A stretch of 21,985 bases of DNA from a virus: the IMG/VR virus record IMGVR_UViG_3300046000_001992, positions 1 to 21,985 of that record; one strand, written 5' to 3'. This document shows, piece by piece, positions 1,585 through 21,985 of the stretch. A program made the translations under genes and the position numbers. Position 1 is the stretch's first letter; the number at the start of each line of letters is the position of its first letter. The notes beneath the pieces were generated by a model, which was given only the letters and a program-made list of their open reading frames with translations, did no database searches and was not told the origin of the DNA.

Positions 1585-4011
1585 ATGACAATACCACAAA
1601 GTCAATTAGCCAGTTTAGTAATTCAAGGTGCCCAAGGTAGACAGGGTTCCGTTGGCGCACAAGGCGTCCAAGGAGCTACTGGTGCTCAAGGTACCATTGG
1701 TGCTCAGGGGGTTCAAGGTACTATTGGCGCTCAAGGTGCTCAAGGTGCTGTTGGTTCTCAAGGAGTACAAGGTGCTACAGGTGCTCAAGGTGTTCAAGGA
1801 GCTACTGGACCACAAGGTGTCCAAGGTGTTCAAGGTGCTACAGGTGCTCAAGGTGATGTTGGTGCTCAAGGTGTCCAAGGTGCTACTGGACCACAAGGTG
1901 TTCAGGGTGCTGTTGGTGCTCAAGGCGTCCAAGGTTCTATCGGTGCTCAAGGTGTTCAAGGAGCTACCGGACCACAAGGTGTTCAAGGTGCAACGCCGGC
2001 TGTTGGTGGTTCTAACACACAGATTCAATTTAATAATGGTGGTGCATTAGGTGGTTCTGCTAATTTAGTATTTGATGGAACTAATGTCGGTATAGGTACT
2101 AGTAGTCCTTTAGTAAATCTTGATGTTGTTAATTCAAGTGCAAGTGGTACAGGTGCTGTTACAACAGTTAGATTAAATCATGCAGGGACAAGTGTAGGAG
2201 ATGGTCCAAGACTTTTGTTTACATCAGGTACATCTACAACTGGTGGCTGTGCTATTGCAGGATATGGTACTGCTTTAAATGCGGCAGATATGCTTTTTTA
2301 TGCTGGTGGAAATACAGAACGGATGCGTATTACAAATGCTGGTAATGTAGGTATAGGTACTAGTAGTCCTAATGCAAAACTACAAGTAACCACTAGTAGT
2401 TTCCCTGTATTAAAAGTTGCAGATGAATTAGGTGGTGGCGCAATTGCTTTAGGTGATGCTGCAATCTCAAGCAACTATGTAGGAATATGGAGAGGTGCAG
2501 TAAATTCTATAAGTGGTGGTGGATTCCTTAATGTTCAAGGTAACGGCATTGCATTTATGTCTACCGATAATGTGTTTGGTTCAGCGACTAGAACAATGAC
2601 ATTGGATAATGGTGGCAAATTATTAGTGGGTACTACAAATAGTCAAGATGCTTTTGTTAACGGTTCTACGCAAGCAGTTTTTAGAGCTATTTTTTCAAAA
2701 GATAATTCCAGCACTGCTTTTGATTCTGTTATTAGCCAACTTGCAATTGATAATATAAACACCACAACAAACAATTATTCTCAACTCGCATTTACTACAT
2801 CCGATGGTGCAAATAGAGTAGTTACTGCTGGAATTTATGCACAAATTACGGCTCGTTCTTCGGCTAATTGGACAACTTCAAATCTACAGTTTTATACAGG
2901 TACTGTTGGCGGTCCTCCAACAGAAAAGATGCGTATAGACTCTAGTGGTAATTTATTAGTGGGTTCTACAAGTGTCCCTACAGGAGTTAGTCAAAGAGTA
3001 TTACAAGTTACTAATGGCACAAACGGTATTGTTATATTAGGTTCAGGTGCTACACTAAGTCCAAACCCAAGAATATTTGGTGGTGATACTTATGACCTTG
3101 GATTAGCTGCTGGTGTTACGACTGGCAAAATGGTGTTTTACACCAATGATGCAGAACGCATGCGCATTACTGCCACTGGTTCAGTTTTAATAGCCAACGG
3201 TGCTGTTGGAGATGCATATGGAAAATTAGCCGTTTTTGGAGTAACAACTAGTACTGTTGGTCCTACTAGTGCTGTTTTTTCAGATAATATAACTTGTACG
3301 ATATACATAACACACGCAAGTTCAGTAGTCACACTTCGTTCTGATGGCGTATTAGCATTTGGGTCAGGTTCTTCAGGCACAGAACGTATGCGGTTAGACA
3401 CTAGTGGTAATTTATTAATAGGTGGTACAGCACAAACTGCTGTGGGTGAAAAATTTCTTGTTCAAAATTCTGCCACCTCAAGTAGTTCAGTATCAATGGG
3501 TATTTATTCTGGCACTAGTGGAACTAAAGATTTAAACTTTTACAGCGATGGCAATTCTCAGTTTTTTACAGCGGCAAGAATTCGTGTAGCTGGCGGTGTT
3601 ACATACACCGATGAAGGGTATATGGCGTTTTGGACTACATCTAATAATGGTTCTAATGTCTTAACAACTTCTGAAAAAATGCGTATTTCTGCTGAGGGTA
3701 GTGTTTCAATTACTCAAGCACCTGGAAAATATACAATTGATGTAACCGGTGGCGCCACTAGTATTGGAAACGGTGGAGTAGTTGATTTTCCAAGTGCATC
3801 TGGAATGCTTATTGTGAATAATTGGACAGACGGACAAGTTACCATATACCTTTGTGGAGGAGGTTCTACAGGAGTTGTTGCAAATGTAGCAGGAACTCAA
3901 GTTGGTTCATTTGCTTACAATGCCGGTATTGCTGGTTATAGATGGACTAACAATTATGGTTCGACTGCCACATTTGGATTTTTCTTTGTTCGTACCAGAA
4001 ATACTGCTTAA
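1585..4011 (+). CDS. Long collagen-like tail fibre with NVGIGTSSP-type repeats
   Basis: This is an 808-residue fibre. Residues 1-14 form a short head, [11 protein letters not shown]. Residues about 15-137 are Gly-X-Y triplets dominated by GAQ, GVQ, GAT and GPQ, with proline in the X position only. A linker resembling [17 protein letters not shown] follows. About seven degenerate repeats come next, each with an MRI (or MTL) segment, then [13 protein letters not shown] or LLVGTT, separated by variable beta domains. The C-terminus (about residues 700-808) is a beta-rich tip ending in [10 protein letters not shown]. There is no S74 chaperone, unlike its paralogue at 4297. No clear Shine-Dalgarno sequence precedes the ATG; the leader is A-rich. 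A receptor-binding or long-fibre role is inferred from architecture. Confidence 0.85.
1978..2109 (+). repeat. Segment duplicated in the 4297 fibre gene (copy 1)
   Basis: This 132-base stretch, from the end of the collagen stalk through the first NVGIGTSSP motif, aligns without gaps to 4522-4653 with nine mismatches by eye. Several mismatches are synonymous. The flanking variable domains of the two fibres are much less alike, so the segment is either strongly conserved or maintained by gene conversion. Confidence 0.8.
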
Positions 4012-4296: not shown

Positions 4297-6624
4297 ATGC
4301 CATTCATACAACAAAGTCAATTAGCCGGTCTAATAATTCAAGGTGCTCAAGGGCAACAAGGTTCCGTTGGCGCACAAGGTGTTCAAGGTGCTACTGGACC
4401 ACAAGGCGTTCAAGGTGCCGTTGGTGCTCAAGGTGTTCAAGGAGCTACTGGACCACAAGGTGTCCAAGGTGCTCAAGGTTCTACTGGTGCTCAAGGTGTC
4501 CAAGGTGCCACAGGTCCTCAAGGTGTTCAAGGTGCAACTCCGGCTATTGGTGGTTCTAACACACAAATTCAGTTTAATAATAGTGGTGCATTAGGTGGTT
4601 CTGCTAATTTAATTTTTGATGGAACTAATGTCGGTATAGGTACTGCTAGTCCTGCTGATGGATTAAATATTGGCACAGGTAAAAAATTTAGAGCAACGCA
4701 TAGTGCAAATGTTTACCAACAAATATTTTCTTCAGCATCGGGAAATTTCTTAAATGCCTATGGTGATAATTTTGAATTAAACGCAGATAGTGGAGCAATA
4801 TATTTAACAGTAACTGCCGCACAACCAATGGTTTTTCAAACCACTAACACAGAACGGATGCGTATTTCTGCTGCTGGCTTGGTGGGTATAGGTACTATTA
4901 GTCCTGATGCACAATTAGATGTAACTCGTTCAGGCAATGGACAAATTGCTGTTTTGCAAACAAGTGCAAGTCGTGGTTTTAGTTTTGATTCTCAATCTGA
5001 TACAGCATTACAAATTGCGTCAATTCAAGGCTCAACAAACATGGATTTGTGGGCTAATACTTTAAGTTTTAGTGCAGGGGGCTCAGAGCGGATGCGTATT
5101 ACCTCTGCTGGTCTAGTCGGTATAGGTACTAGTAGTCCTGATACAACAACATTATTAACAGTTGCAGGTGCAGTAACAATAACAGGTGCTAATAGTGGTC
5201 ATGGTGCATCAAGATTAAAACTTGGACAAGATACATCTGCTATTTCTCAAATACGATTCTATGGTGCAGATGCCTCTACAGCAGGTATATTACAGTTTAC
5301 TGGTTCTAGTTCAGATGGTGCTGTAGGTGGTGAACGGATGCGAATAGATAATGCAGGTAATGTGGGTATTGGTTTATCGACAATTTCTGCTTGGGCAAAA
5401 CTTGAAGTTTTAGGAACAGCAGGAGCGCAAACAGGTGCAGCACAACAATTATCTATTATTGGTAGAACAACCACAGCAGGACAGGGTGCAGGTATTAGAC
5501 TTTCAGCCGCAAGTGGTTCAAATGAAGCAGTAGGTATTATTGGTGTAGTTAATAATGCAAGTGGTACATCAGGTTCAATGACCTTCCATGTTTACAATGG
5601 TGGCGGAGATATTCCTGAGCATATGCGTATTACAAATACTGGTAATGTAGGCATAGGTACCAATAGCCCTATTAGACCTTTGCAAATTGGTTCTTATGGC
5701 GTCACAAACGGTGAAATTACACTTGCTTCTACTACAACAGGTTATGGAAGTATTTTGTTTGGTGATGGCGCAACTGGCTCAGATTTTTATCGTGGGTATA
5801 TACAATACCAACACTCAGGTGATTACATGATAATTGCTACAGCAACAGCAGAACGGATGCGTATAGACTCTAGTGGTAATGTAGGTATAGGTACTAGTAG
5901 TCCTGATAACAATAGTGGATATAAGGCTCTAACAATTTCAGGTACTGATGGTGGCGGACAAATATATTGGAAATCTACTACTTATTCAGTAACAGCATAT
6001 GCTGGTGCAGACAGTAATGGTGGATATATTGCTACACTTACAAATCATGCATTAATACTTAGAACAAACAACACAGAACGGATGCGTATTACAGGTACTG
6101 GTGAATTAATAGTTGGCGCATCTTCAACTGTTGGTACTGGTGGTAAAATGCAAGTATATAGTACGTCCGATACTCTGTATGTTCAGTCAAACGTAAACGA
6201 TGCGTGGTCCGCTATAGTTACAAACGTCCAATATACGGCTACTAATTTAGTTGCATTTCAATATGGTAATACAACAAACGTAGGTTCAATTGCGACAAAC
6301 GGTACAGGTGTTACTTATGGTACAGCATCTGACTATCGTCTAAAAGAAAACATTGTACCAATGACAGGTGCGTTGGCTACAGTAGCACAACTTAAACCTG
6401 TGACTTACAAGTGGAAATCAGATGGTTCTGATGGTCAAGGATTTATTGCCCACGAACTACAAACCGTTGTACCTGCCGCAGTTCACGGTGTAAAAGATGG
6501 CTTAAAAGAAAATGGTAAGCCTAATTACCAAAATGTAGATACATCATATCTAGTAGCAACATTAGTAGCAGCAATACAAGAATTAAAATCCGAATTTGAC
6601 GCATATAAATCAACACATCCTTAA
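4297..6624 (+). CDS. Long collagen-like tail fibre with C-terminal S74 intramolecular chaperone
   Basis: This 775-residue protein is a paralogue of the fibre at 1585. The head is similar ([11 protein letters not shown]) and the collagen stalk is shorter (residues about 16-81; [12 protein letters not shown] triplets). It has the same NTQIQFNN linker and about seven repeats of the form ERMRI[11 protein letters not shown] alternating with variable domains. The C-terminus is a peptidase S74 / endosialidase-type intramolecular chaperone: SDYRLKEN with Ser678 and the downstream Lys, then [13 protein letters not shown] and a terminal helix, [12 protein letters not shown]. In this family the chaperone trimerises the fibre and then cuts itself off N-terminal to the Ser. 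That would release about 98 residues and leave a mature fibre of about 677. No strong Shine-Dalgarno sequence is visible. Confidence 0.9.
4522..4653 (+). repeat. Segment duplicated in the 1585 fibre gene (copy 2)
   Basis: This is the partner of the 1978-2109 copy, ungapped over 132 bases and about 93% identical by manual comparison. Homologous recombination between the copies would fuse the 1585 head and stalk to the 4297 repeats and S74 tail, and would delete the small gene at 4020. Confidence 0.8.
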
Positions 6625-6636
6625 AGGAGAATCAAA

Positions 6637-6936
6637 ATGGCAATCGTATACACATGGAACGTATCACAAACAGAATATCTGACCTCAGATAAATTTATCA
6701 CGACAGCTCATTGGCAATGTGGTGCAGTAGACGGAGAGTATCAATCTTCTGTTTACTCAACTTGTGGCTGGCAAGCTGGAACACCTACTATAGCCTATGC
6801 AGATGTAACAATGGCTGAAGTCTTGGATTGGATTTGGGCATCAGGTGTAGACAAAGATGCAACAGAGGCATCACTAGCAGAACAGATTGCACTACAGAAA
6901 AATCCCACAAGTGCTTCTGGAGTGCCTTGGAACTAA
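6637..6936 (+). CDS. Small hypothetical protein ending in VPWN (paralogue of 14940-15323)
   Basis: This 99-residue protein has a strong AAAGGAG ribosome site. It begins with a short beta segment (YTWNVSQTEY). Residues 22-45 are Trp/Cys-containing and beta-like. A helical segment has the pattern VTMAEVLDWIWA (about 58-69), and the protein ends ASGVPWN. The 127-residue protein at 14940 has the same layout, with LTEDDVITWISD and a final PGLPWAP segment. Proteins of this shape are common in T4-like marine phages near structural genes, but I cannot assign a function. The next late promoter overlaps its 3' edge, so it probably belongs to the upstream fibre transcription unit. Confidence 0.7.
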   Translation: MAIVYTWNVSQTEYLTSDKFITTAHWQCGAVDGEYQSSVYSTCGWQAGTPTIAYADVTMAEVLDWIWASGVDKDATEASLAEQIALQKNPTSASGVPWN

Positions 6937-7252: not shown

Positions 7253-8542
7253 TTGGCAACCAATAATACCTTTAGTACAAAAAATGGTTTAACGGTAGGT
7301 GATACTACTATTGTTGCCGCCAATGGTGTTTGGGTTGGTGCAGCCACAAATCTTATAGGTCCACAGGGTGTACAGGGTGCTCAAGGTGTTCAAGGTACTG
7401 TTGGTGCTCAAGGTGCACAAGGTACTATCGGTGCTCAAGGTGCACAAGGTACTACAGGTGCTACAGGCGCTCAAGGTTCAGCCGGTGCTCAAGGTGTTGC
7501 TGGTGCTCAGGGTGCCGTAGGTGCTCAAGGTGTACAAGGTGTTGTTGGTGCTCAGGGGGTTCAAGGTGCTGTCGGTGCTCAAGGTACTCAAGGTTCTACT
7601 GGACCTACTGGTGCTCCAGGTGCTCAAGGTGTCCAAGGCACATTAGGTCCTCAAGGTGTTACAGGAAATACAGGTCCAACAGGAGCTCCTGGTGCTCAAG
7701 GTACTCAAGGTGTTCAAGGTACGACTGGACCTACAGGACCAGGTGGACCAACAGGACCTCCTGGCGCTCAAGGTCCTACGGGACCTACAGGTGCTCCAGG
7801 TGCTCAAGGTGTTCAAGGTTCAGGTGGTCCTACAGGACCCACAGGTCCTACAGGTCCTCCAGGTGCTCAAGGTCCAACAGGTCCAGGTGGACCTACTGGA
7901 CCAGGTGGACCAACAGGACCTCCAGGTGCTCAAGGCGTTCAAGGTTCGACCGGTCCAACGGGACCAGGTGGTCCTACAGGACCCACAGGTCCTCCAGGTG
8001 CTCAAGGTCCAACAGGTCCAGGTGGACCTACTGGACCAGGTGGACCAACAGGACCTCCAGGTGCTCAAGGTGCTCAAGGAATTCCCGGACCAGTAAATGT
8101 AGGTAATGTTGTTCAAGTTGTTCATGCACAGACTAACAATACCACCGGATTTACAATGACAAGTAACATTACACCCGTTACATGGACTGGCGCACCTACG
8201 GCAACAATTACTTTGACAAATAGTGCAAATAAAGTAGTAATTCTTGCAAGAATAGGTATGCAATATGATGCTGCAGACCAATGTGTAAACTTTATGTTCC
8301 GGTTTGTCGGTGGTACTCTTATTGCTGATTTATCTGGTAGTTCTTACTATGGTTCGACTTTTCACGGTACAAGTGCAGCTGGTGGTTTATGGAAAGATGT
8401 ATCAATTACTTGGACAGACTCACCAGGAACCACAGGTCCTGTTACATATACTTGGTATACAAGAAGTGAATCTGGAGGACTAATATATCCAGACCATGGA
8501 AATTGCACCAATTCTATCATACTTATGGAGGTTAAGGTATAA
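7253..8542 (+). CDS. Proline-rich collagen-like tail fibre
   Basis: This 429-residue fibre uses a TTG start. The choice rests on its exact alignment with the ATG start of the paralogue at 13272 (M-ATNNTF), and on AAAAGGA nine bases upstream. Residues 1-35 are a conserved attachment head shared with that paralogue ([23 protein letters not shown]). Residues 36-281 are unbroken Gly-X-Y, changing from GAQ/GVQ to GPT, GPP, GAP and GPG. I count five GPP and three GAP triplets, that is, prolines in the Y position. The stalk has no Lys, Arg, Asp or Glu. The C-terminal tip (about 282-429) is a beta-rich domain with no S74 chaperone. The next gene is chaperone-like and the oxygenase/glycosyltransferase cassette follows it. 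Confidence 0.88.
7850..7935 (+). repeat. 86-bp perfect direct repeat within collagen stalk (copy 1)
   Basis: This segment is identical to 7985-8070, offset by exactly 135 bases (45 codons, 15 triplets), so recombination between the copies stays in frame and changes stalk length. Confidence 0.85.
7985..8070 (+). repeat. 86-bp perfect direct repeat within collagen stalk (copy 2)
   Basis: This is the second copy of the 7850-7935 segment. Identity at the nucleotide level, not only the protein level, points to a recent duplication rather than selection on Gly-X-Y alone. Confidence 0.85.
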
Positions 8543-8544
8543 AA

Positions 8545-8862
8545 ATGATTTCAGATAATTTTTTTGAATCAATCTACAAACTTTACCCCAATGTAGTCAG
8601 TACATTAGGTGATAAGGCTTATGACGCAAATGGTGATGAAGTAATTTATGATTTACAAGCTGTTACAGAAGAAGCACAAAAAGAAACTTGTAAAAAAAAG
8701 GCCAAACAATTATTAGTCCTTAGTGATTGGTCAGCTTTGCCTGATGTTGGTTTAATAAATTCTGCTGAGTTTGTTACTTATCGTGGTATTTTACGAGGGT
8801 ATGTAATTCAACCCGTAGTATCTCCTAATTTCCCTATAGAACCAACACCTATTTGGGTATAA
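8545..8862 (+). CDS. Tail fibre assembly chaperone-like protein
   Basis: This 105-residue protein starts two bases after the stop of the 7253 fibre. The C-terminal half has the pattern AKQLLVLSDWSALPDVGL...EFVTYRGILR (about residues 53-89). This matches the core of phage tail assembly chaperones, which pair an R/K-x-LL-x-(S/T)DW segment with a YR-x-LR segment. Such proteins usually sit directly downstream of the fibre they help fold. The N-terminal half (DKAYDANGDEVIYD) is consistent with family members that begin with a variable domain. The fibre at 7253 has no S74 domain, so an external chaperone would make sense. The function is inferred from motif and position. Confidence 0.65.
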   Translation: MISDNFFESIYKLYPNVVSTLGDKAYDANGDEVIYDLQAVTEEAQKETCKKKAKQLLVLSDWSALPDVGLINSAEFVTYRGILRGYVIQPVVSPNFPIEPTPIWV

Positions 8863-8934: not shown

Positions 8935-9507
8935 ATGACTGGTGAATGGTGTTACTTTAATCATTATTTTGATAAAACGGCGTGTGAAAAAATCATTGCT
9001 GATGCGGCAGATATCCCAACACAAGATGGTATTCTAGGTATAGGTGACGGCCAAACCGTAGATTACTCTTTGCGTAGAAGTAAAATCAGATTTGTTAATT
9101 CAGACAATACCAAATTTACTTGGGTGTTTGATGCTCTATGGAAAACAGCCTTAGATGCCAACAGAGATTTTTTCAATGTTCATATTACAAGGTTACCATT
9201 TATTCAAATTGCTGAATATGATTATCTTGATAAAGGTGAATACAAAGAACACCATGATGTCTTTTGGTTAAACAACGATCCAATATATCATCGCAAACTT
9301 TCTTGTATTATACAACTATCCGATCCTGAAGATTATCAAGGTGGTGATTTTGAAATTACAGAAGGTTGTCCGGCATTAGATAGAGAAACTAAAAATCAAG
9401 GCTCTATCATTTACTTTCCTTCAATGTTCAGACACAAAGCAAATCCAGTCCTCAGAGGTACTAGATATAGTGTAGCAGCTTGGTTTGAAGGACCTAAATG
9501 GAGATAG
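8935..9507 (+). CDS. 2-oxoglutarate/Fe(II)-dependent oxygenase, prolyl-hydroxylase-like
   Basis: This 190-residue protein is about the size of a single jelly-roll oxygenase domain. The iron ligands are visible: His106-x-Asp108 in EHHDVF, and distal His167 in FPSMFRHKA. The 2OG-binding Arg is probably Arg177 in GTRYSVAAWFEGP, a typical end for this fold. The GGDFEI strand lies between them. These enzymes use O2 and 2-oxoglutarate to hydroxylate peptides or small molecules. The arrangement resembles prolyl-4-hydroxylase/PKHD-type proteins. It follows the proline-rich collagen fibre and its putative chaperone, and leads directly into a second oxygenase (stop and next ATG one base apart). Stalk prolines are a plausible substrate, which is inference. 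The ribosome site is AAAGGTGA. Confidence 0.85.
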   Translation: MTGEWCYFNHYFDKTACEKIIADAADIPTQDGILGIGDGQTVDYSLRRSKIRFVNSDNTKFTWVFDALWKTALDANRDFFNVHITRLPFIQIAEYDYLDKGEYKEHHDVFWLNNDPIYHRKLSCIIQLSDPEDYQGGDFEITEGCPALDRETKNQGSIIYFPSMFRHKANPVLRGTRYSVAAWFEGPKWR

Positions 9508-9508
9508 A

Positions 9509-10228
9509 ATGAATGATATTGTTATGGAAGTTGAACCTTTTGAATATTTTATAATAGATAATTTTTTACCAGTAGATAAAGCCAAAAAACTCTCAGCCGA
9601 ATTTCCAGATTTTCATTCACCAGTTTGGTATGATTATGATAATCCATTGGAATTAAAAAAGACAATTAACAATTGGTTTTATTTTCCACCTGAAACATAC
9701 CAGTTATTTACAGAGTTAAATGGTAATAACTTCACTGGTAAATTAAAAGATATTTTGAAATTGAATAATCTATATTCAGATATGGGTTTACATGGAGGCG
9801 GCTGGCACATTCATGGTCATGGTGGAAAATTAAATGTACATCTTGACTACTCTCTGCATCCAAAGTTAAACCTAGAGCGCAGGTTAAATCTCATTCTATA
9901 CCTAACACCAGATTGGGATCCTAAATGGGGTGGCAATTTAGAATTCTGGTCGCATGATGAAAAAACAAATAAACCAAAAGAAAAAGTTAAGACAATAGAT
10001 TGTATTTTTAATCGAGCCGTTATCTTTAATACCACACAAAATTCTTGGCATGGATTTTATGACCCTATTAATTGTCCAAAAGATGTGTATAGAAAAAGTG
10101 TTGCCACTTATTACTTGACAGATTCTACACCAAATACACCACCAAGAAAAAGAGCCTTGTATAGTCCTGCAAAAAACCAAGAGAATGATAAAGATATATT
10201 AGAATTAATTGAAAAGAGAGTAAGATAA
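9509..10228 (+). CDS. Second 2-oxoglutarate/Fe(II)-dependent oxygenase
   Basis: I chose the ATG at 9509 (239 residues), one base after the previous stop with GGAG upstream. An in-frame TTG at 9485 would add eight residues inside the previous gene and is less likely. Iron ligands: His111-x-Asp113 in NVHLDYS, and distal His181 in QNSWHGF. Arg195 in YRKSVATYYLT is the likely 2OG anchor. The LILYLTPDWDPKWGGNLEFW segment is the usual central jelly-roll region. The sequence differs strongly from the oxygenase at 8935, so this is not a recent tandem copy and the two may act on different sites. The gene overlaps the next by one base (TAATG). Confidence 0.85.
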   Translation: MNDIVMEVEPFEYFIIDNFLPVDKAKKLSAEFPDFHSPVWYDYDNPLELKKTINNWFYFPPETYQLFTELNGNNFTGKLKDILKLNNLYSDMGLHGGGWHIHGHGGKLNVHLDYSLHPKLNLERRLNLILYLTPDWDPKWGGNLEFWSHDEKTNKPKEKVKTIDCIFNRAVIFNTTQNSWHGFYDPINCPKDVYRKSVATYYLTDSTPNTPPRKRALYSPAKNQENDKDILELIEKRVR

Positions 10229-11952
10229 TGGCTGAAAAAAAATGTAAAATTGTAATGACCACGATGTTTCAAAATGAATCTAAAACTATTAGACGAATGT
10301 TGGAATCTTGTTACAAATATATTGACTTTTGGGTAATACAAAACAACGGTTCAACAGATGGTACAGAAAAAATTGTTGAAGAATTTTTTGCAGAACATCA
10401 AATACCAGGATTTCTTTACAACGTAGATGAAGGCTGGGTAGGCTTTGGTTGGAATCGTGACCATCTGACACAAACTTGCCAAAGTCTTGAACATGGTTGT
10501 GATTGGATTTTAAAGATGGACTGTGATGAGATTCTGCAAGTAGATGATGACTTTGATTGGTCAATACTAGATGATACCACAGTACATTCTTGGGAAGTTC
10601 CTTGTGTTCAAGGCACATCAACTTACACTCGGTGTTGGATGTGGAATGCTAAAATGTTTTGGCGTTTTAACCACGACCCATGCCATGAAACTGTTTATTG
10701 TGCCGATGAATCTATTGGTGATAGATTTCAAAGAGTGTTATTACCAAAATCATTTAGACAAACAGGATTTAATGAAGGTCAAAGCTGGGGCGTACCAACT
10801 AAATTTATGAGTCATGCTCTCATCTTAGAAGAAAAGATGATAGCTGAAGATAGTTTCAAAACAAATCTATATCATTTTTGGTACATTGGTAAAAGTTATT
10901 TTGATGCTTGGGAATCAAATGCTTTTCCTTTAGGTGAAAGCCAAAAGAAAGAATATGGCCGCAGGTGTATCTATTATTTTGGTGAATATTTAAATTTTAT
11001 GCACCAGTTTAATAAAACACAATCAGCACAATTCATCGATGAAGTTTCTTATATGTCTATGTTGATGATTGCACAGATTTATGGTTACTTTGATGATAAA
11101 GAAAATCAAATAAGTTATTTAAAATCGGCAGGTTCATTTGCACCAGGTAGAAATGACCATCTATTGGCTTTGGTATACAAATATCAACAGTTAAAAGATT
11201 GGAAAAATATGTACAAATACACAAGTATTATGATGCAGCCTGAAAGAACAAATGCTTATCCAACATATACAAACTTTGTAGATTCTTCCATATACCATGA
11301 TGGTGGTACGTTGGTTCAAAGTTTACACAGCATTGCTTCACATGAAAAAGAAAAAGAAGAATCAGAACAAACAGAACACCCACCATTTTATATCAATAAA
11401 TCTTATGGTAAAAAATTGTTTGTTGTAGATAACTTTTATAATGATCCAGATACAATAAGAGACTTTGCATTAACACAAGTTGAATATAAAGAAGATTTAA
11501 GATGGTATAAAGGACTTAGGTCTGTAAGACCATATCGACCAAAAGGACTTAAAGAAGCCTTTGAGTTCATTATGGGTGAACGTATCGTAGACTTTGAACA
11601 AGGTTATAATGGTGTATTTCAAATCTGTATAGCCGAAGATCCACAAGTTTATCATTATGATATGCAAAAATGGGCTGCCATGATATACATGACACCAGAT
11701 GCACCGCTAGAAAGTGGTACAAGATTACATCGGTCTAAAATTAATGGTGCCAGAAGAGCAACAGATGTTGATGCTGATACGGCTTTTTCTGGTGGATTTT
11801 ATGATTCTACTAAATTTGATATTGCCGATTCAGCTGGTAACCTGTATAATAGACTAGTCATTATGGATGCTAGATGTATACATTCAGCAGGACCCTATTT
11901 TGGCCAAAACAAACAAGACGGCAGACTAACACATTTATTTTTCTTTGATTAA
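10228..11952 (+). CDS. Fusion: GT2-type glycosyltransferase + C-terminal 2OG-oxygenase-like domain
   Basis: This 574-residue protein has two enzyme parts. Residues 1-250 form a GT-A fold glycosyltransferase: KIVMTTMFQNES, QNNGSTDGT (38-46) and a DxD metal/nucleotide-sugar motif in KMDCDE (Asp98, Asp100). Residues about 270-345 are helical, TPR-like in appearance. After a charged linker (372-384, KEKEESEQ), residues about 385-574 form a jelly-roll oxygenase-like domain. It starts LFVVDNFYNDPDTIRDFA and contains YHYD (His476, Asp478), a distal His552 in CIHSAGPYF, and Arg566. The layout resembles DUF6445-type 2OG proteins. The order transferase then oxygenase parallels animal and mimivirus collagen lysyl hydroxylase/glucosyltransferases, but the domains do not look like direct homologues. 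Activity and substrate are inferred. Confidence 0.8.
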   Translation: MAEKKCKIVMTTMFQNESKTIRRMLESCYKYIDFWVIQNNGSTDGTEKIVEEFFAEHQIPGFLYNVDEGWVGFGWNRDHLTQTCQSLEHGCDWILKMDCDEILQVDDDFDWSILDDTTVHSWEVPCVQGTSTYTRCWMWNAKMFWRFNHDPCHETVYCADESIGDRFQRVLLPKSFRQTGFNEGQSWGVPTKFMSHALILEEKMIAEDSFKTNLYHFWYIGKSYFDAWESNAFPLGESQKKEYGRRCIYYFGEYLNFMHQFNKTQSAQFIDEVSYMSMLMIAQIYGYFDDKENQISYLKSAGSFAPGRNDHLLALVYKYQQLKDWKNMYKYTSIMMQPERTNAYPTYTNFVDSSIYHDGGTLVQSLHSIASHEKEKEESEQTEHPPFYINKSYGKKLFVVDNFYNDPDTIRDFALTQVEYKEDLRWYKGLRSVRPYRPKGLKEAFEFIMGERIVDFEQGYNGVFQICIAEDPQVYHYDMQKWAAMIYMTPDAPLESGTRLHRSKINGARRATDVDADTAFSGGFYDSTKFDIADSAGNLYNRLVIMDARCIHSAGPYFGQNKQDGRLTHLFFFD

Positions 11953-11955
11953 ATT

Positions 11956-13224
11956 ATGAAACAATACAAATTTAGCTTTATTACACCTGAACATAGTCCA
12001 GAAAACATACCATATTTACTTGAATTATATGATTCGATTATCAAACAAACATATAAAAAATGGGAATGGGTTATACTAACAAACAACAAATGTACACCAG
12101 AACATTTACCTGAAAAAATAAGAAATGATAGTAGGGTAAAAGTATTTCATTGGCACGGAGAGACGGCCAGTATTGGTAAATTAAAATTAGATGCCTTTTA
12201 TCTAGGTACAGGTGATATATTAGTTGAAGCCGACCATGATGATATGTTTACACCAGATTGTTTAGAAGAATTAAACAAAGCATATCAAGATGAATCGGTT
12301 GGATTTGTTTATTCTGATAATGCAGCTTATAAAATGGATGGTGAGTTTATACCTTTTATGCCAGAGAATGGTTGGACATACAGAACACATAAATGGAAAG
12401 ACAAAGAATTAATTGCCATGAATAGTTTTGAACCTAGTAGTCACAGTCTAAGTTATATTTGGTATGCACCAGACCATGTGAGAACATGGAGAGCATCTGT
12501 ATATAAAGAAATTGGTGGTCATAATCCAGAACTAGAGATTTGTGATGACCATGAATTGTGTATTCGTACCTATCTGAAAACAAAGATGGTTCATATACCT
12601 AAAGTATTATACATTTATAGATATACTGGTTTCAATACATCAGTAAATAGTAGAAACGCTGATATACAGATTAAGACAGTTGAATTGTTTAATCAATATA
12701 CAAGACAGTTGGCGGAAAGAGATGCAGAACTTAATGGTCTATTGAAAGTAGATATTGGTGGTGGGTTAAATCCATATCCAGGTTATTTTACAGTTGATTT
12801 AAGAGACACAGCCAACCTTCAAGCTGACTTAAATAATGGTATTCCTTTACCTGATAACTCTGTTGGTGTTCTAAATGCCAGTCATATCATTGAACATCTG
12901 CATGATAAAACAAAAATCATGGCAGAAATACATAGGGTTTTGGCACATGGAGGCTGGGCATTTATAGATGTACCTAGTACCGATGGTCGTGGTGCCTTTC
13001 AGGATCCAACCCATGTAAGTTATTGGAATGAAAATAGTTTTTTATATTATACAGATTCTTATTTGGCCAACTTTATAGATAATACATCAATTAGATTTCA
13101 AGAATACCGTAAAGAAACTTATTATCCTAACGATTGGTTAAAAAGTTTGAATGTTTTAGTTACAACGGCTTGGTTAGTGGCTATCAAAGATGGACCTAGA
13201 TTACCAGGACTATTAAAAATTTAA
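11956..13224 (+). CDS. Fusion: GT2-type glycosyltransferase + SAM-dependent methyltransferase
   Basis: This 422-residue protein has two domains. Residues 1-250 are a GT2 domain: FSFITPEHSPENIPYLLE, SIIKQTYKKWEWVI, a metal motif in VEADHDD (Asp93, Asp95, Asp96), and ICDDHELC (Asp197-Asp198) in the region of the catalytic base. Residues about 265-400 resemble a class I methyltransferase: VDIGGG (265-270), FTVDLRD, PLPDNSVGVLNASHIIEHL, and HRVLAHGGWAFIDVP. Such a pair could add a sugar and then methylate it, or cap it. The gene starts three bases after the previous stop with no clear Shine-Dalgarno sequence, implying coupled translation with the upstream fusion protein. It ends the enzyme cassette; a late promoter and a collagen fibre gene follow. 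The acceptor is unknown. Confidence 0.8.
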   Translation: MKQYKFSFITPEHSPENIPYLLELYDSIIKQTYKKWEWVILTNNKCTPEHLPEKIRNDSRVKVFHWHGETASIGKLKLDAFYLGTGDILVEADHDDMFTPDCLEELNKAYQDESVGFVYSDNAAYKMDGEFIPFMPENGWTYRTHKWKDKELIAMNSFEPSSHSLSYIWYAPDHVRTWRASVYKEIGGHNPELEICDDHELCIRTYLKTKMVHIPKVLYIYRYTGFNTSVNSRNADIQIKTVELFNQYTRQLAERDAELNGLLKVDIGGGLNPYPGYFTVDLRDTANLQADLNNGIPLPDNSVGVLNASHIIEHLHDKTKIMAEIHRVLAHGGWAFIDVPSTDGRGAFQDPTHVSYWNENSFLYYTDSYLANFIDNTSIRFQEYRKETYYPNDWLKSLNVLVTTAWLVAIKDGPRLPGLLKI

Positions 13225-13271: not shown

Positions 13272-14888
13272 ATGGCAACCAATAATACTTTTAACACCAA
13301 AAACGGATTAACGATAGGTGATAACACCGTTATTGCGGCTAATGGTGTTTGGGTTGGTGCTGCCACAAATCTTATTGGTCCTCAAGGACTACAAGGTGTT
13401 CAAGGTGCACAGGGGGTACAAGGTACTGTTGGTGCTCAGGGTGCTCAAGGTGTCCAAGGTACTGTAGGCGCTCAAGGTATAATAGGTGCTCAAGGTTCTG
13501 CTGGCGCTCAAGGTGTTGCTGGTGCTCAAGGATTTACTGGAGCTCAAGGCGTTCAAGGTGCCATTGGTGCTCAAGGTGTTCAAGGCGTTACCGGACTAAC
13601 AGGTGCTCCTGGCGCTCAAGGTGTTCAAGGTTCAACCGGACCAACAGGTCCCGTAGGACCTAATGGACCTCAAGGATTTGCTGGCGCTCAGGGTACCGTT
13701 GGTGCTCAAGGTTCAACAGGACCTGGAGGTCCTACAGGAGCTCCAGGTGCTCAAGGTGTTCAAGGCTCGACAGGACCCACAGGTGCTCCTGGTGCTCAAG
13801 GTAATATAGGTAATACAGGTCCACCTGGACCAGGTGGTCCAACAGGTGCTCCTGGTGCTCAAGGCGTACAAGGTTCTACAGGACCCACAGGTCCCACAGG
13901 TCCAGGTGGACCAGCAGGTCCTCCAGGTGCTCAAGGCGTACAAGGTTCTACAGGACCCACAGGTCCCACAGGTCCAGGTGGACCAGCAGGTCCTCCAGGT
14001 GCTCAAGGTGTTCAAGGTCCTACAGGTCCTACAGGTCCTACAGGTTCAACAGGACCTACAGGTGCGCAAGGAGCGTCCGGTGCAACAATTCTAGGTTCAA
14101 GTAATACATGGACTGCTGCAAATTATTTTCAATCTAATCTTGGAGCAACTTCTGGAAGTTTGAACAGTCCACCTTTACAAGTATATGCATCTGGTGGCAA
14201 CTCAGCGTTTATGGCGTTTCATCGTGGTGGCGCTTATGCAGTAAATATGGGACTAGATTCAGATAACGTACTGCGTATGGGTGGATGGTCAGCGCCAGCT
14301 AATCTCTGGCAGTTAGATATGTCTGGTAATAATTATTTGTTAGCTTCTTCTAGAGCACCAATATTCTATGATTCAAATGATACTACTTATTATCTAGACC
14401 CTAATAGTGGTTATAGTCAGATGGCTGGCACATTAGCACTTGGTGGAAATTTTTCTGGTGTTGGATCTGGCGCAACTGTTAGAATTCATTTAGCTGGTGG
14501 AGGCGCTGGCGATAGTAACTCTGGTGTTGCTGCTGCATGGAACGTTCACTCAGACTATCGATTAAAAGAAAATGTTCTTCCTGTTACTGATGGTCTTGAA
14601 AAGATTATGAGAATTCAAATTAAATCTTTTACATGGAAAAACAATATACCTAATGTTGTGGCTTCAACAATTAGGCAAGACGGTGTTATTGCACACGAAC
14701 TACAAGAAATATTACCTTATGCTGTGATTGGTGAAAAAGATGCTGTTGATTCTCAAGGTAATATTCAATCACAATCAGTAGATTATGCCAAATTAGTTTC
14801 ACCATTAATTCAAGCTGTACAAGATTTAAAACGAACAATTGATTCACAACAAACACAAATAGAAGCATTGAAAGCACTTTTAAAGTAA
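13272..14888 (+). CDS. Proline-rich collagen-like tail fibre with C-terminal S74 chaperone
   Basis: This is a 538-residue fibre. Residues 1-35 match the head of the 7253 fibre almost residue for residue ([23 protein letters not shown]), so both probably attach to the same site. Residues 36 to about 270 are Gly-X-Y, with GPT, GPA, GPP (three) and GAP (four) triplets and no Lys. A middle domain follows, with [22 protein letters not shown] and [16 protein letters not shown], motifs typical of phage fibre shafts. The C-terminus is an S74 chaperone: Ser427 in [27 protein letters not shown], and a terminal coiled coil, [16 protein letters not shown]. Self-cleavage before Ser427 would release about 112 residues. 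The gene follows the oxygenase/glycosyltransferase cassette and has a late promoter of its own. Confidence 0.9.
13863..14006 (+). repeat. Perfect tandem duplication, 2 x 72 bp, in collagen stalk
   Basis: The units 13863-13934 and 13935-14006 are identical base for base (72 bp, 24 codons, eight Gly-X-Y triplets). The lack of any synonymous difference indicates a very recent in-frame expansion, or a repeat that is readily copied. Confidence 0.9.
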
Positions 14889-14939: not shown

Positions 14940-15323
14940 ATGACAACATTGACGTATGAATACAAAATAACCTCACTCAAGGTAAGAACCGAAGGTGAAT
15001 ATTCCAATACTGTAGTTCAGACCTATTGGACATTAACAGGCACGGACGAAGCAAACAATTCTGGTACATTTAGTGGTGCTACACCATTTACATATGATCC
15101 AGAAGATAGCTCAGGTCCTTTTGTACCTTTTAATGAACTAACTGAAGATGATGTTATCACTTGGATTAGTGATGTAGTAGCCAATAATGCTGGATATAAA
15201 ACACACATCGATGGTGTAATCACTAAACAGATTACTGATAAGCTCAGTCCAATCTCAGAACCTGGATTACCATGGGCACCAGCAAATACAGCACCAATAA
15301 CTCCTCCAGGAACATCAGCATAA
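14940..15323 (+). CDS. Small hypothetical protein with PGLPWAP segment (paralogue of 6637-6936)
   Basis: This 127-residue protein has a strong AGGAGAAA ribosome site. The N-terminal half is beta-rich (TYEYKITSL, YSNTVVQTYWTLTGTDE). Residues about 72-86 (LTEDDVITWISDVVA) are helical and Trp-containing, and the PGLPWAP segment lies near the C-terminus. It shares this plan with the 99-residue protein at 6637. Related small proteins are common beside structural genes of T4-like marine phages. No function can be read. The 51 bases upstream show no late promoter motif, so it is probably co-transcribed with the 13272 fibre. Its stop codon overlaps the next late promoter. Confidence 0.7.
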   Translation: MTTLTYEYKITSLKVRTEGEYSNTVVQTYWTLTGTDEANNSGTFSGATPFTYDPEDSSGPFVPFNELTEDDVITWISDVVANNAGYKTHIDGVITKQITDKLSPISEPGLPWAPANTAPITPPGTSA

Positions 15324-15617: not shown

Positions 15618-15620
15618 TTG

Positions 15621-16394
15621 ATGGCAACAATCACAACTAGAGCTAACTTCAAACAATATTGCCTCAGAAGATTAGGTTTTCCAGTCATTGAAATTAACGT
15701 GGATGATGACCAAGTGGAAGACCGGATTGATGATGCGTTACAATATTGGCAAGATTATCACTTTGATGGCCTACAAAAAATATATTACGTCAAAGCTATA
15801 CAGCAAACGGATATAAACAATAAGTATATTGATTTAAGTAATGTCTTAGATGCTTCAAACAATACCATGGAGATTGTTGGAGTAACCCGTATATTCCCAA
15901 TTACCGATTCTCAAGCCGGTGTTAATATGTTTGACTTGAGATATCAATTACGACTTAATGAGTTGTACGACTTCACCTCCGCATCATACATCAACTATAC
16001 ATTAACACAACAACACTTACGCTCTCTTGAACTGATGTTCACTGGAGAAGTTCCTATTCGATTCCAAAGACATATGCAAAAACTGTTTATTGATTGGTCA
16101 TGGGGGTCTAAACAAGCCGAACTTGGTGATATCGTAGTTGCCGAATGTTATGCCTCGATTAATCCAGATGTTTATGGTAGAGTATGGAATGACCGGTGGA
16201 TGAAAGAATATGCCACGGCATTAATCAAAAGGATGTGGGGAAACAACCTCAAGAAATTTGCTGGCTTACAATTACCAGGCAGTGTAACATTAAATGGTGA
16301 TAGAATATTCCAAGAAGCCATAGATGAGATTGCCAAGCTAGAACAACAAATGCAAATCGAATACGGAGCACCTTTAGAATTCATGATGAACTAA
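15621..16394 (+). CDS. 13: Neck protein gp13
   Basis: The 257-residue reading uses the ATG at 15621, five bases after AGGAGAA; a TTG directly before it is too close to the ribosome site. The N-terminus has the features of T4-like gp13: FKQYCLRRLGFPVIEINVDDDQVEDRIDDALQYW, then YHFDG and a YYVKAI segment. In T4, gp13 and gp14 complete the filled head and form the neck to which the tail joins. The protein is somewhat shorter than T4 gp13 (309 residues), as in many marine relatives. It starts the block gp13-gp14-gp15-gp16-gp17-gp18, which supports the call. Its leader carries the hairpin/late promoter element. Confidence 0.88.
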   Translation: MATITTRANFKQYCLRRLGFPVIEINVDDDQVEDRIDDALQYWQDYHFDGLQKIYYVKAIQQTDINNKYIDLSNVLDASNNTMEIVGVTRIFPITDSQAGVNMFDLRYQLRLNELYDFTSASYINYTLTQQHLRSLELMFTGEVPIRFQRHMQKLFIDWSWGSKQAELGDIVVAECYASINPDVYGRVWNDRWMKEYATALIKRMWGNNLKKFAGLQLPGSVTLNGDRIFQEAIDEIAKLEQQMQIEYGAPLEFMMN

Positions 16395-16395
16395 T

Positions 16396-17277
16396 ATGGC
16401 AACTTCAGTATACTTTAATAACTACAACTCTCACGGTGAACAACACCTCATAGAAGATTTAATTGTTGAATCAATTAAAATCATGGGGTTTGATTCATTC
16501 TATTTACCTATTGAGAATCCACAAGACAGAGACATCCTATACGGAGAAGATCCAGTTAAGAAGTTTAGAGCTTCTTATCCATTAGAAATGTATCTATCTG
16601 ATGCCTCTGGTTATGAAGGCCAACAGGATTTCTTTTCTAAGTTTGGCTTAGAAATTCGTGATGTTGTTAAAGTAATATTGTCGAAAAGGTCATTTGACCA
16701 AAGAATGCCACTTGCAACATTATCAAGACCAAGAGAGGGTGATTTAGTTTATGTTCCTTTTCTAAATGGTACTGGTGAATTATATGAGATTACATTTGTA
16801 GAACAAGCAAAAGACTTTCATCAATTAGGAAGAAGAGCACCTTATTTCTATGAGTTAAGCCTTGAGAAATTCAAGTATTCACAAGAAATTATCAACACAG
16901 GTACGGCAGATATTGATAAAGTTGTTACTGATTCTTCATATACATTACATTTAAATACTGGAACTGGTACAGGTACATACACAATACAAGAAATTGTTTT
17001 TCAATCTTTAGATAGTACATATGCCAATGCAAATACAATTGCTTATGTACAATCTTGGATACCAAGTTCAAATACATTATCAGTTACAAATATTGCTGGT
17101 GAGTTTATCGATGGAAGAAGATTAATTGGTAAAACAAGTAATGCTCAATACATATTAACATCTTTTGATCCATTAGATACTCCAGCACATATAGAATCAT
17201 ATGATAATTTTTATCTAGCCAACACAGCGAATTCTATTATAGACTTCTCTGAAACTAATCCGTTTGGATCAATCTAA
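16396..17277 (+). CDS. 14: Neck protein gp14
   Basis: This 293-residue protein begins one base after the gp13 stop. The N-terminus (YFNNYNSHGEQHLIEDLIVESIKIMG, then FYLPIENPQDRDILYGED) and the central QQDFFSKFGLEIRDVVKVILS, PREGDLVYVPF and LGRRAPYFYELSLEKFKYSQE segments fit T4-type gp14, which works with gp13 at the head-tail neck. It is longer than T4 gp14 (256 residues). The extra part, about residues 198-258, is a beta module (EIVFQS...VTNIAGEFIDGRRLIGKTSNAQYIL) that recurs in gp15. The stop overlaps the gp15 start by one base (TAATG). Confidence is high from order and motifs. Confidence 0.88.
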   Translation: MATSVYFNNYNSHGEQHLIEDLIVESIKIMGFDSFYLPIENPQDRDILYGEDPVKKFRASYPLEMYLSDASGYEGQQDFFSKFGLEIRDVVKVILSKRSFDQRMPLATLSRPREGDLVYVPFLNGTGELYEITFVEQAKDFHQLGRRAPYFYELSLEKFKYSQEIINTGTADIDKVVTDSSYTLHLNTGTGTGTYTIQEIVFQSLDSTYANANTIAYVQSWIPSSNTLSVTNIAGEFIDGRRLIGKTSNAQYILTSFDPLDTPAHIESYDNFYLANTANSIIDFSETNPFGSI

Positions 17278-18374
17278 TGGCAAATGTAACCTACAATCGT
17301 GTTATTCGTAAACTTGTAATAGGTTTTGGTAATCTATTTGATGAGATTACATTAGTTCGATATAATCCAAATAATACAGAAGCCGAAAGGTTTATTGTTC
17401 CTATTGCCTATTCAGCAAAAGAACTATACGTTCAAAGATTATTATTTGACCCTGATTTGGATAAAAAAGTTGGATTGACACTACCTAGAATGTCTTTTGA
17501 AATGACAGGTATGATTTATGATGTAAGCAGAAAACAAAATACAAATACCAAAAATTTTACTAATACAGCTTCTGGTGTGTTAGCACAATATAATCCTGTA
17601 CCTTACAATTTTGATTTCTCATTATACTTATATGTAAGAAACACAGAAGATGGTACACAGTTACTAGAACACATTATACCATTTTTTACTCCCGATTATA
17701 CAATTAAATTAAATTTAATACCAGATTTAGGTGTTGTAAAAGAAGTACCTGTTATATTAAATAGTGTATCATCAGAAATTGATTATGAAGGTGATAGAAA
17801 TAATCCAACAAGAATGATTATATGGACTTTAAACTTTACAGTTAAAGGCTTTATATTTGGTTCTTATACTACACCAAAACTTATTCGTACTTCTATTACA
17901 AACATATTAAATGATATATCAGAATCAGATGTAGTATTATTTAATTTAGCCAACACAGGATTAGGATTATATCAGGCTGGTGAGATTGTTTATCAAGGTT
18001 ATACACCACAAATTTCAACAGCAACGGCTAAAGTTGTAAGATTTAATTCAAGTAATAATATATTACACTTGACAAACATTAATGGTAACTTTGTTTCTTC
18101 ATCACCTATTATTGGTGCAACTACAAATTCAAATTATATATTCAATTCTTATACTGTACAACCGAAAAATCTAGCTCAGATTGTTACTACGCCTACTCCA
18201 ACAGATGCCAGTGCGAATGATAAATATAATTATACAACCACGGTTACAGAAACACCTAATATTGATACGAATGTAGTATCTGGTGTACCTTTCAATACTG
18301 ATTTAATGTTAAACATATATGGTATTGATGACCTTAATACTCAACAAGCAAATACAATAGATTTAGGATCTTAG
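17277..18374 (+). CDS. 15: Tail completion / sheath stabiliser protein gp15
   Basis: This 365-residue protein has an N-terminal part matching the gp15 family: FGNLFDEITLVRYN, VPIAYSAKELYVQRLL, LTLPRMSFEMTGMIYD, VPYNFDFSLYLYVRN and EHIIPFFTPDYTIKLN. In T4, gp15 caps the tail tube and sheath and joins the tail to the neck. T4 gp15 is 272 residues; this one has a C-terminal extension beginning near residue 205. The extension includes a beta module (about 235-293: GEIVYQGYTPQ, LHLTNINGNFV, IIGATTNSNYIF) also present in gp14, followed by a Thr-rich tail. A GATAAATA at 18219-18226 lies inside the coding sequence and is noted among the rejected items. Confidence 0.88.
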   Translation: MANVTYNRVIRKLVIGFGNLFDEITLVRYNPNNTEAERFIVPIAYSAKELYVQRLLFDPDLDKKVGLTLPRMSFEMTGMIYDVSRKQNTNTKNFTNTASGVLAQYNPVPYNFDFSLYLYVRNTEDGTQLLEHIIPFFTPDYTIKLNLIPDLGVVKEVPVILNSVSSEIDYEGDRNNPTRMIIWTLNFTVKGFIFGSYTTPKLIRTSITNILNDISESDVVLFNLANTGLGLYQAGEIVYQGYTPQISTATAKVVRFNSSNNILHLTNINGNFVSSSPIIGATTNSNYIFNSYTVQPKNLAQIVTTPTPTDASANDKYNYTTTVTETPNIDTNVVSGVPFNTDLMLNIYGIDDLNTQQANTIDLGS

Positions 18375-18375
18375 A

Positions 18376-18990
18376 ATGTCTAGAATAATTCAATTTAAAA
18401 GATTTGGTGCAGCTGCCATCGCCAATACAATTGGTGCAAATGGTGAGATAATTTTTGATATGACAAACAGAGTTATAACTGTTCATGATGGCGTGACTTC
18501 TGGAGGGTTTGCAGTACAGACAGATAACACAGCCAGAAATTTAGCAAATGCATCTTTTCTCCAAGCCAACACAGCGAATGTGACGGCCGAGTCTGCATTT
18601 GCCAGAGCCAATTTAGCAAATATATTAGCTCAAGCTGCATTTACTCAAGCCAATACAGCAGCCCAAACAGTTCCACAAAATGCTCAGACAACAAATTATA
18701 CACTTCAATTGTCTGATGCTGGTAAACATATTTACTACACACAATCATCAAACGTAATATTGTATATTCCCACAACCTCTAATGTGGCATTTTCTAATGG
18801 TACAACCATTATGGTTGTTTCTAGAACATCTTCAAGTGCTAATGTAACTGTATCACCAAACACCGGCGTATCAATGTTTCTTGCTGGCAATACAACTAGT
18901 GCTTCAAGAAATGTTACTACACATGGTGTTGTTACACTAATTAATGTTGCAGCCAATACATGGTTCATTAGTGGATCTGGAGTAGTATAA
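18376..18990 (+). CDS. Structural protein, tail-fibre/adhesin-like, inserted between gp15 and gp16
   Basis: This 204-residue protein starts one base after the gp15 stop with a weak GGA site. Residues 10-50 (GANGEIIFDMTNRVITVHDG) resemble the small N-terminal domain found at the base of many phage fibres and tropism determinants. Residues 58-97 carry three 14-residue repeats of the form (A/S)F-x-(Q/R)AN-x-AN-xx-A, probably a helical or coiled stalk. Residues about 98-204 form a beta-rich domain (YTLQLSDAGKHIYYTQ, VTLINVAANTWFISGSG), as in fibre tips. T4 has no gene here; its fibritin (wac) lies upstream of gp13. A whisker or decoration role is possible but not shown. Confidence 0.65.
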   Translation: MSRIIQFKRFGAAAIANTIGANGEIIFDMTNRVITVHDGVTSGGFAVQTDNTARNLANASFLQANTANVTAESAFARANLANILAQAAFTQANTAAQTVPQNAQTTNYTLQLSDAGKHIYYTQSSNVILYIPTTSNVAFSNGTTIMVVSRTSSSANVTVSPNTGVSMFLAGNTTSASRNVTTHGVVTLINVAANTWFISGSGVV

Positions 18991-19009
18991 ATTTTAATAT
19001 GGAAATACT

Positions 19010-19426
19010 ATGAATAACCTTGATAAAAATTTAAGTGATGTATTTGATGTGACGCCTATTGGTGAACCAGAACCACCAAAAAAACAAACTTTAACTACAA
19101 GTTATAAACAACCTGATATAGATTCTGATTTAACAGATGCCTATCAGCAATCAAAAGAAAATCTTCAAGGTATCATAGACCAAGGCCAAGAAGCTATGTA
19201 TGAAATACTGGAGATTGCCAAAGCAGGCCAGCACCCAAGAGCATTTGAGGTATATGCCACATTATTAAAGAACATGACCGAAGCCAACGATAGACTTCTC
19301 AAGATACAAAAAGAAATGAGAGACATTTCTGGTATCAAAAAAGAAGCTACCACAACCAATATTGATAAAGCTATCTTTGTAGGTTCAACATCTGAATTGA
19401 GTAAGTTACTAAAAAGTAAAGACTAA
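19010..19426 (+). CDS. 16: Small terminase subunit gp16
   Basis: This 138-residue protein lies immediately before the large terminase. The N-terminus is acidic and flexible with a proline-rich patch (EPEPPKK, residues 19-25). The central part is helical: DLTDAYQQSKENLQGIIDQGQEAMYEIL, KAGQHPRAFEVYATLLKNMTEANDRLLKIQKEM. The latter pair of helices fits the oligomerisation coiled coil of T4-type gp16. This subunit forms a ring that recognises DNA and regulates the ATPase and nuclease of gp17 during packaging. Its size is close to T4 gp16 (164 residues). The stop overlaps the gp17 ATG (TAATG), as expected for subunits made together. Confidence 0.85.
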   Translation: MNNLDKNLSDVFDVTPIGEPEPPKKQTLTTSYKQPDIDSDLTDAYQQSKENLQGIIDQGQEAMYEILEIAKAGQHPRAFEVYATLLKNMTEANDRLLKIQKEMRDISGIKKEATTTNIDKAIFVGSTSELSKLLKSKD

Positions 19427-21105: not shown

Positions 21106-21116
21106 AGATAGCGTTT

Positions 21117-21124
21117 GATAAATA
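21117..21124 (+). promoter_or_regulatory. Late promoter (GATAAATA) upstream of gp18
   Basis: The core lies 12 bases after the gp17 stop and 51 bases before the gp18 ATG, giving an expected leader of about 45 nt. A strong TTAAGGAGAA ribosome site precedes the ATG. No inverted repeat surrounds this promoter, unlike those at 13243 and 15592. Confidence 0.6.
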
Positions 21125-21175
21125 TAATCATGGTATTATAACTGCCAATAACATAATAATTTAAGGAGAACACAA

Positions 21176-21985
21176 ATGGCATTTCAAATCTCTCCAGGTG
21201 TAGCTGTTTCCGAAGTCGATTTTACGACAGTAGTTCCTTCGGTACAAACTACAGCCGGTGCAATCGTAGGTACTTTTCTCTGGGGACCTGCAGAAATAAT
21301 TAAACAGACTTCAAGTGAAACAGAATTGGTTTCTATATATGGTAAACCATCAACAAACACAGCGATACAAAATACATTCTTAACCGCATCTTCTTTTTTA
21401 GCATACGGAAATAATTTAAAAGTTGTTCGTGCTATATCTGCTACAACTAATAATGCCACATCTAATGCTAGTTCAAATGTTCAAGTTACAAACGAAGATT
21501 CTTTTGAATATTCATATTTAAATAATAGAGTAAATGCTAATGTGGCTGGAGCTTTTATTGCTAGATATCCAGGAACTTTAGGCAATTCATTAACTGTTTC
21601 AGTTTGTGATGCTGGAGCAAACGCAACAGGATTTTCAACATGGACTGTTAATGGTGCTGGTGTTTCATCACTTTTTCCTAGTGTTCCAGGAACTTCAGTT
21701 CAAGCTGCAGCCGCTGGTGCTTCGAATGATGAAATTCACGTTGTTGTTGTTGATTCTGGTGGAGCAATTACAGGCACAAAAAATACTGTATTAGAAATAT
21801 TTCCATATCTTTCAAAAGCTACTGATGCTACCGACTCATTAGGAAATTCAAACTATTACAAAAATTATATTTTTAGAAATTCAAAATATATTTACGCAAT
21901 AGATCCTCCTTTATATAATACAATAGGTGCAAATGGTACTACTCCAGCAAACACATGGGGATATGCATTAGCTAATACAAGTAAC
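21176..21985 (+). CDS. 18: Tail sheath protein gp18, N-terminal part (3' end outside window)
   Basis: The frame is open for 270 codons to the window edge. The start MAFQISPGVAVSEVDFTT, then AGAIVGTFLWGPAEIIKQ, YGKP, and a LAYGNNLKVVRAI segment follow the N-terminal pattern of T4 gp18 (SPGIELKE, G-F-WGP, YGNDLRVVRA). Gp18 forms the contractile sheath around the tail tube. The second part, with ARYPGTLGNSLTVSV, matches the conserved sheath motif PG-LGN-L. The rest of the protein lies beyond the window. Position directly after gp17 is as in T4. A late promoter of its own and a strong ribosome site fit the high copy number of sheath protein. Confidence 0.93.
   Translation, partial: MAFQISPGVAVSEVDFTTVVPSVQTTAGAIVGTFLWGPAEIIKQTSSETELVSIYGKPSTNTAIQNTFLTASSFLAYGNNLKVVRAISATTNNATSNASSNVQVTNEDSFEYSYLNNRVNANVAGAFIARYPGTLGNSLTVSVCDAGANATGFSTWTVNGAGVSSLFPSVPGTSVQAAAAGASNDEIHVVVVDSGGAITGTKNTVLEIFPYLSKATDATDSLGNSNYYKNYIFRNSKYIYAIDPPLYNTIGANGTTPANTWGYALANTSN

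Follow-up and report, generated by a model that had tools for sequence, protein, structure and literature searches.

What do four enzyme genes act on when they sit among the collagen-like tail fibre genes of a T4-like phage? The locus that raises this question is a 21,985-base virus record (hereafter the window, i.e., the whole stretch of DNA analysed), whose terminase shares 54% identity with those of cyanophages. Upstream of the neck-type protein, terminase, and sheath genes at 15618–21985 lies a block of five fibre genes with collagen stalks, one of them truncated. The four genes, termed the cassette, are encoded on the same strand between the fibres starting at 7253 and 13272, with intergenic gaps of no more than 3 bases or a 1-base overlap. 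The relevant features are listed here, X and Y being the variable positions of the Gly-X-Y stalk triplets:

1–720, + strand: truncated collagen fibre; 43 triplets, Y-position proline 14%
1585–4011, + strand: contrast fibre with a QSQLA anchor; Y-position proline 0/41, X-position proline 7%
4297–6624, + strand: contrast fibre with a QSQLA anchor; Y-position proline 0/22, X-position proline 14%
7253–8542, + strand: collagen fibre with a TTG start; stalk at about 7358–8095, 82 triplets, Y-position proline 11%, X-position proline 39%
8545–8862, + strand: putative tail-fibre assembly chaperone (phrog_4912, 1.6e-4), between the 7253 fibre and the cassette
8935–9507, + strand: OX1, 190-aa PHD/P4H-type 2OG-Fe(II) oxygenase, proposed collagen prolyl hydroxylase (Pfam 2OG-FeII_Oxy_3, PF13640, 5e-14)
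9509–10228, + strand: OX2, OGFOD1/P4H-like 2OG-Fe(II) oxygenase (Pfam 2OG-FeII_Oxy_3, PF13640, 1e-16)
10228–11952, + strand: GTA/OX3, GT2 domain, TPR-like helical middle, and C-terminal DUF6445/phrog_1644 oxygenase-like domain
11956–13224, + strand: GTB/MT, GT2 domain and SAM methyltransferase domain
13272–14888, + strand: collagen fibre with a C-terminal S74 chaperone; stalk at about 13377–14087, 79 triplets, Y-position proline 9%, X-position proline 32%

The fibres combine Gly-X-Y stalks with matches to PF01391 and tail-fibre PHROGs (Pfam matches of the 13272 fibre: PF01391, 3e-33; PF13884, 1e-12), and were thus classed as collagen-like phage tail fibres. The initial annotation had placed the cassette between the two fibres richest in Y-position proline: it is indeed flanked by the 7253 and 13272 fibres, but the highest value belongs to the truncated fibre at 1–720. 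The accompanying statement that the 1585 and 4297 fibres have proline in X position only was borne out. These two fibres carry the QSQLA anchor, a different one from the N-terminal TKNGL...GVWVG anchor (...TKNGLTVG...GVWVG in the 7253 fibre) that is shared by the 7253 and 13272 fibres and recurs in OX1-adjacent fibres of relatives. At 740–1147 and 8545–8862, in each case directly behind a fibre bearing Y-position proline, are two short genes whose products match PHROGs of tail-fibre assembly chaperones, and two DUF7936 proteins (6637–6936 and 14940–15323) each follow a collagen fibre gene. Late-promoter-like ATAAATA motifs occur at 6938, before the 7253 region, and at 13244, before the 13272 fibre, with none inside the cassette; since the motif count across the window is at chance level, we only infer, from the sequence, that the cassette is co-transcribed with the 7253 fibre.

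The predicted content of the cassette, i.e., three 2OG-Fe(II) oxygenase domains, two GT2 domains, and one methyltransferase domain, held in Pfam searches, and the HxD...H...R motif is intact in all three oxygenases. Each has the Fe(II) triad and the distal 2OG-binding arginine of the 2OG-Fe(II) superfamily, invariant in the respective alignment (H106/D108/H167/R177 in OX1, across 39 homologues; H110/D112/H180/R194 in OX2; H476/D478/H552/R566 in OX3). OX2 starts with the ATG at 9509, the point at which its homologues also begin, and phmmer linked it to OGFOD1 (3e-9) and the PHD-like 6t8m (0.004). The protein at 10228–11952 matches PF00535 (1e-6), PF20043 (DUF6445, over cut-off), and phrog_1644 (5e-24), its glycosyltransferase part has a fold near the peptide glycosyltransferases SunS/ThuS, and D98/D100 are invariant in the GTA alignment; in other phages (L120/L121), the glycosyltransferase and OX3 are separate genes that are fused in the window. 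GTB/MT matches PF00535 (2e-11) and PF08241 (Methyltransf_11; 1.5e-8, 35.6 bits), and a VDIGGG SAM-loop motif places its second domain among SAM methyltransferases. With PF00535 matches and visible DxD-type motifs, both proteins qualify as GT2 glycosyltransferases. A match of the ORF4 model to LH3 (TM about 0.2, mediocre pLDDT of 75) was set aside as evidence.

For OX1, structural comparisons pointed to peptidyl-prolyl hydroxylases. An AlphaFold (AF2) model (pLDDT 92) had as its top fold match the EF-Tu prolyl hydroxylase PPHD of P. putida (4iw3, Z 20.7), ahead of an algal P4H with (Ser-Pro)5 (3gze, Z 19.4), Trichoplax PHD and human PHD2 (Z about 18–19), and the collagen prolyl hydroxylase vCPH of PBCV-1 (5c5t, Z 17.9); 6f0w was also among the leading matches, and PiuC-type PKHD enzymes ranked lower (Z 16–17). 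OX1 therefore has the fold of the PHD/PPHD/P4H enzymes, a shared fold that by itself demonstrates neither function nor substrate, and at the sequence level its nearest relative is PKHD-type PiuC, not a collagen enzyme. Whereas a lysine binds the C5 carboxylate of 2OG in the alpha subunit of animal collagen P4H, OX1 has the invariant Arg177, presumed to bind 2OG as an arginine does in PHD2. PPHD and PHD2, although among the best fold matches, act on EF-Tu and HIF and not on collagen. The PBCV-1 enzyme is likewise a virus-encoded prolyl hydroxylase of similar size, but it is 16% identical to OX1 and comes from a chlorovirus of eukaryotes, for which we know of no fibre operon. Judged by its fold and by the fibres beside it, OX1 is likely a phage collagen prolyl hydroxylase. 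Two further OX1-like open frames (L371:7328–8020 and L372:10234–10941), in which HxD aligns to GxS, are possibly inactive copies, and both contigs also hold an intact OX1.

We then asked how this arrangement is distributed among relatives by searching viral contigs with each of the four cassette proteins, with a neck protein as background, and with OX1 across its whole family; a composition-blind search additionally picked out stretches of 30 GG-N7 units in a row. The usual order, COL-COL-COL-OX1-OX2-GTA/OX3-GTB/MT, is kept on the same strand in dozens of environmental phage contigs, down to ~55% identity. In most relatives every fibre lies upstream of the cassette, and a fibre on both sides is peculiar to the close kin of the window. 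Among contigs with OX1 of at least 45% identity and at least 3 kb of upstream sequence, 37 of 43 had collagen no more than 6 kb from the gene (leaving 6 without), compared to 7 of 37 when the neck gene was the reference (p 1e-9). In the cultured phages S-PRM1 and S-CAM9, too, an OX1 relative (44–45% identical) follows a fibre gene that bears collagen. A dedication to collagen is not supported for the remainder of the cassette: collagen is mostly absent near OX2 (present in 4 of 30 contigs) and the GT/OX3/MT genes also occur away from fibres (see below).

The fibres next to OX1 bear proline when both triplet positions are considered. Total stalk proline reached at least 13%, a threshold set post hoc after the data had been seen, in 35/35 OX1 clusters of at least 45% identity and 18/18 of 33–45% identity, i.e., in all 53 clusters of at least 33% identity with adjacent collagen, versus 45/88 low-GC viral collagens without OX1, with the caveat that clusters are related; collapsing OX1 clusters at 60% identity left 9/9 and 11/11. 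For stalks of 30 uninterrupted triplets, proline in OX1 contigs never fell below 15% (median 41%), compared to a median of 13% in controls, and a same-ascertainment rank test gave p 2e-12 with kinship not removed. Controls were limited to GC < 0.55 because Y-position proline follows GC content in a random collagen sample: in the composition-blind viral stalks (L246–L365) it rises with GC (Spearman 0.35), and about half of the low-GC stalks in this set have little or no proline. OX1 paralogues below 33% identity displayed no link to proline (5/7). In one contig without OX1 (L117), OX2 follows the fibre after 55 bases, and none of the 44 stalk triplets contains proline. Conversely, L055–L062 hold the rest of the cassette and collagen with 20–45% X-position proline with no OX1 in the stretch, hence stalk proline does not need OX1. 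When the presence of OX1 is mapped onto a GT-MT gene tree, its state switches only ~3 times, once on a well-supported branch, and with so few independent transitions the OX1–proline correlations are not phylogenetically secure.

A similar neighbourhood was found in cellular genomes. In the sphingomonad chromosomes L438, L445, and L450, an OX1 homologue (32–33% identity) is followed 0.4–0.6 kb downstream by a lipoprotein with GPS/GPT repeats, and in L446 the distance is 3.9 kb; no such lipoprotein accompanies the homologue in L436, L447, and L448. On sequence grounds, these same-strand Sphingobium/Novosphingobium pairs (L438:8001–9400, L445:8001–9240, L450:8001–9340, and L446:8001–12900) are possible cellular collagen-hydroxylase pairs.

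The reading that we favour, and hold to be on balance just probable, is that the PHD-type OX1 hydroxylates stalk prolines of the adjacent fibres, while the methyltransferase and both GT2 domains assemble an O-methylated glycan on one of the virion proteins and OX2 and OX3 serve as accessory hydroxylases. The predicted substrates would be the tail fibres that this gene cluster encodes, and prolines in both X and Y position are possible targets because OX1 also occurs beside stalks that lack Y-position proline. Hydroxylation would make the triple helix more stable or better hydrated, or provide an attachment point for a sugar. The glycan would most likely be short and plausibly carried by the same fibres, an assignment of the GT and MT genes that is uncertain. 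A full maturation line, in which OX1 (with OX2/OX3) makes stalk hydroxyproline, the glycosyltransferases add a sugar to this residue, and the methyltransferase caps the sugar, is possible, if unlikely.

The hydroxylase reading of the cassette survives in part, through the fold of OX1 and its tie to proline-bearing collagen fibres, but its original form, in which OX1 acts on Y-position proline only and the glycosyltransferases modify threonine in the GPT triplets of the two flanking stalks (7253 and 13272), now appears very improbable. A strict Y-position marker did fit the first sample, where such proline occurred in OX1-bearing contigs and was almost absent from OX1-less cassettes. It remains present at 2% or more in 28/35 OX1 clusters versus 16/45 proline-bearing controls (clusters being related), and is missing from the two QSQLA-anchor fibres of the window. 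In the wider sample, however, complete cassettes stand beside type-I fibres without any Y-position proline, in 972 triplets for L366–L369 and 239 for L373. A degenerate OX1 active site was rejected as the cause, the catalytic residues of these cassettes being intact. Y-position proline is also absent despite OX1 in L385, L206, L392, and L394/395, its state changes 5 times on the OX1 tree, and the OX1 transitions on the GT-MT tree are too few for an independent-pairs test of OX1 against Y-position proline to be informative; in viral collagen, moreover, it generally tracks GC content. Y-position threonine, considered as a marker for the glycosyltransferases, was rejected in turn, since its median is lower where they are present (0.19) than where they are not (0.51), which leaves GPT glycosylation unsupported.

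The rather unlikely but more serious alternative is that the cassette enzymes modify glycans and small molecules of host or phage, such as surface polysaccharide or lipid-linked sugars, and that their genes just happen to sit in a variable fibre region where host-interaction genes gather. GTB resembles TarS/GalT1-type transferases, OX2 mostly lacks collagen neighbours, and S-CRM01 encodes a single protein 55% identical to GTB/MT near the photosynthesis genes psbA and hli, away from fibres. Similarly, in L121:5927–11245 and L120:4119–9453, a GT/OX3/MT core occurs away from fibres and without collagen, accompanied by another GT-like gene, an additional copy of OX3, and a gene resembling UDP-galactopyranose mutase; judging from gene content, this glycan module may draw on galactofuranose. 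That the core occurs away from collagen indicates that the module is portable; in the lineage of the window it is joined to the fibre block. Left unexplained by action on glycans and small molecules are the prolyl-hydroxylase fold of OX1, its placement next to proline-bearing collagen in almost every contig, and a gene order directly behind the fibres that is kept across divergent contigs. OX1 could also hydroxylate a non-collagen part of the fibre (anchor or tip) or a chaperone, stalk proline being a by-product of fibre ancestry; we consider this improbable, since the Sphingobium homologues lie beside a different collagen-like protein without the N-terminal anchor common to OX1-adjacent fibres, although that shared anchor and the few independent transitions behind the stalk association are in its favour.

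Hydroxylation of stalk prolines would have partial parallels in known systems. Giant viruses add hydroxyl groups and sugars to collagens of their own, and L230, L593, and R699 of mimivirus are collagen-modifying enzymes (PMC9546862). Mimivirus thus encodes collagen together with its hydroxylase and glycosyltransferases, L230 joining both activities, but the modification is lysyl hydroxylation followed by Hyl-glucosylation, whereas none of the window stalks has a Y-position lysine. These stalks therefore offer no Gly-X-Lys acceptors of the LH3/L230 type, lysyl hydroxylation was rejected, and phmmer detected no LH-type relatives of the window genes. In B. anthracis, a prokaryotic P4H is active on both the X and the Y position of collagen-like peptides, and BclA is a glycosylated collagen-like protein (PMC8968730), but this system is cellular, with no fibre-linked phage gene set. 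Mycobacteriophage virion proteins also carry glycans (Freeman 2023, as cited in PMC12619734), in that citation on capsid and tail tube, with collagen and hydroxylases not part of the account given there.

A Baltic Sea survey (2022) noted viral prolyl 4-hydroxylase genes and tail-fibre collagen and called their use ‘cryptic’ (PMC9301287), and a 2012 analysis stated that bacteria and viruses lack prolyl hydroxylases for Y-position proline of collagen (PMC3368898). In the open-access literature, we found no report, experimental or other, of a phage collagen prolyl hydroxylase. To our knowledge, no bacteriophage is known to glycosylate its virion collagen through hydroxyproline. Marine T4-like phages carry many 2OG oxygenase genes, usually read as host-metabolism genes. 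This is how the 24 oxygenase genes of S-SCSM1 were interpreted (PMC9602691). If OX1 hydroxylates phage collagen, one group of these enzymes would instead serve virion maturation, an idea that the OX1 relatives in cultured S-PRM1 and S-CAM9 make testable. The benefit to the phage, which we purely infer, could be a changed stability or a disguise of the virion. Like animals, phages may hydroxylate the collagen that they make, and OX1 would then offer a compact prokaryotic route to hydroxylated collagen.
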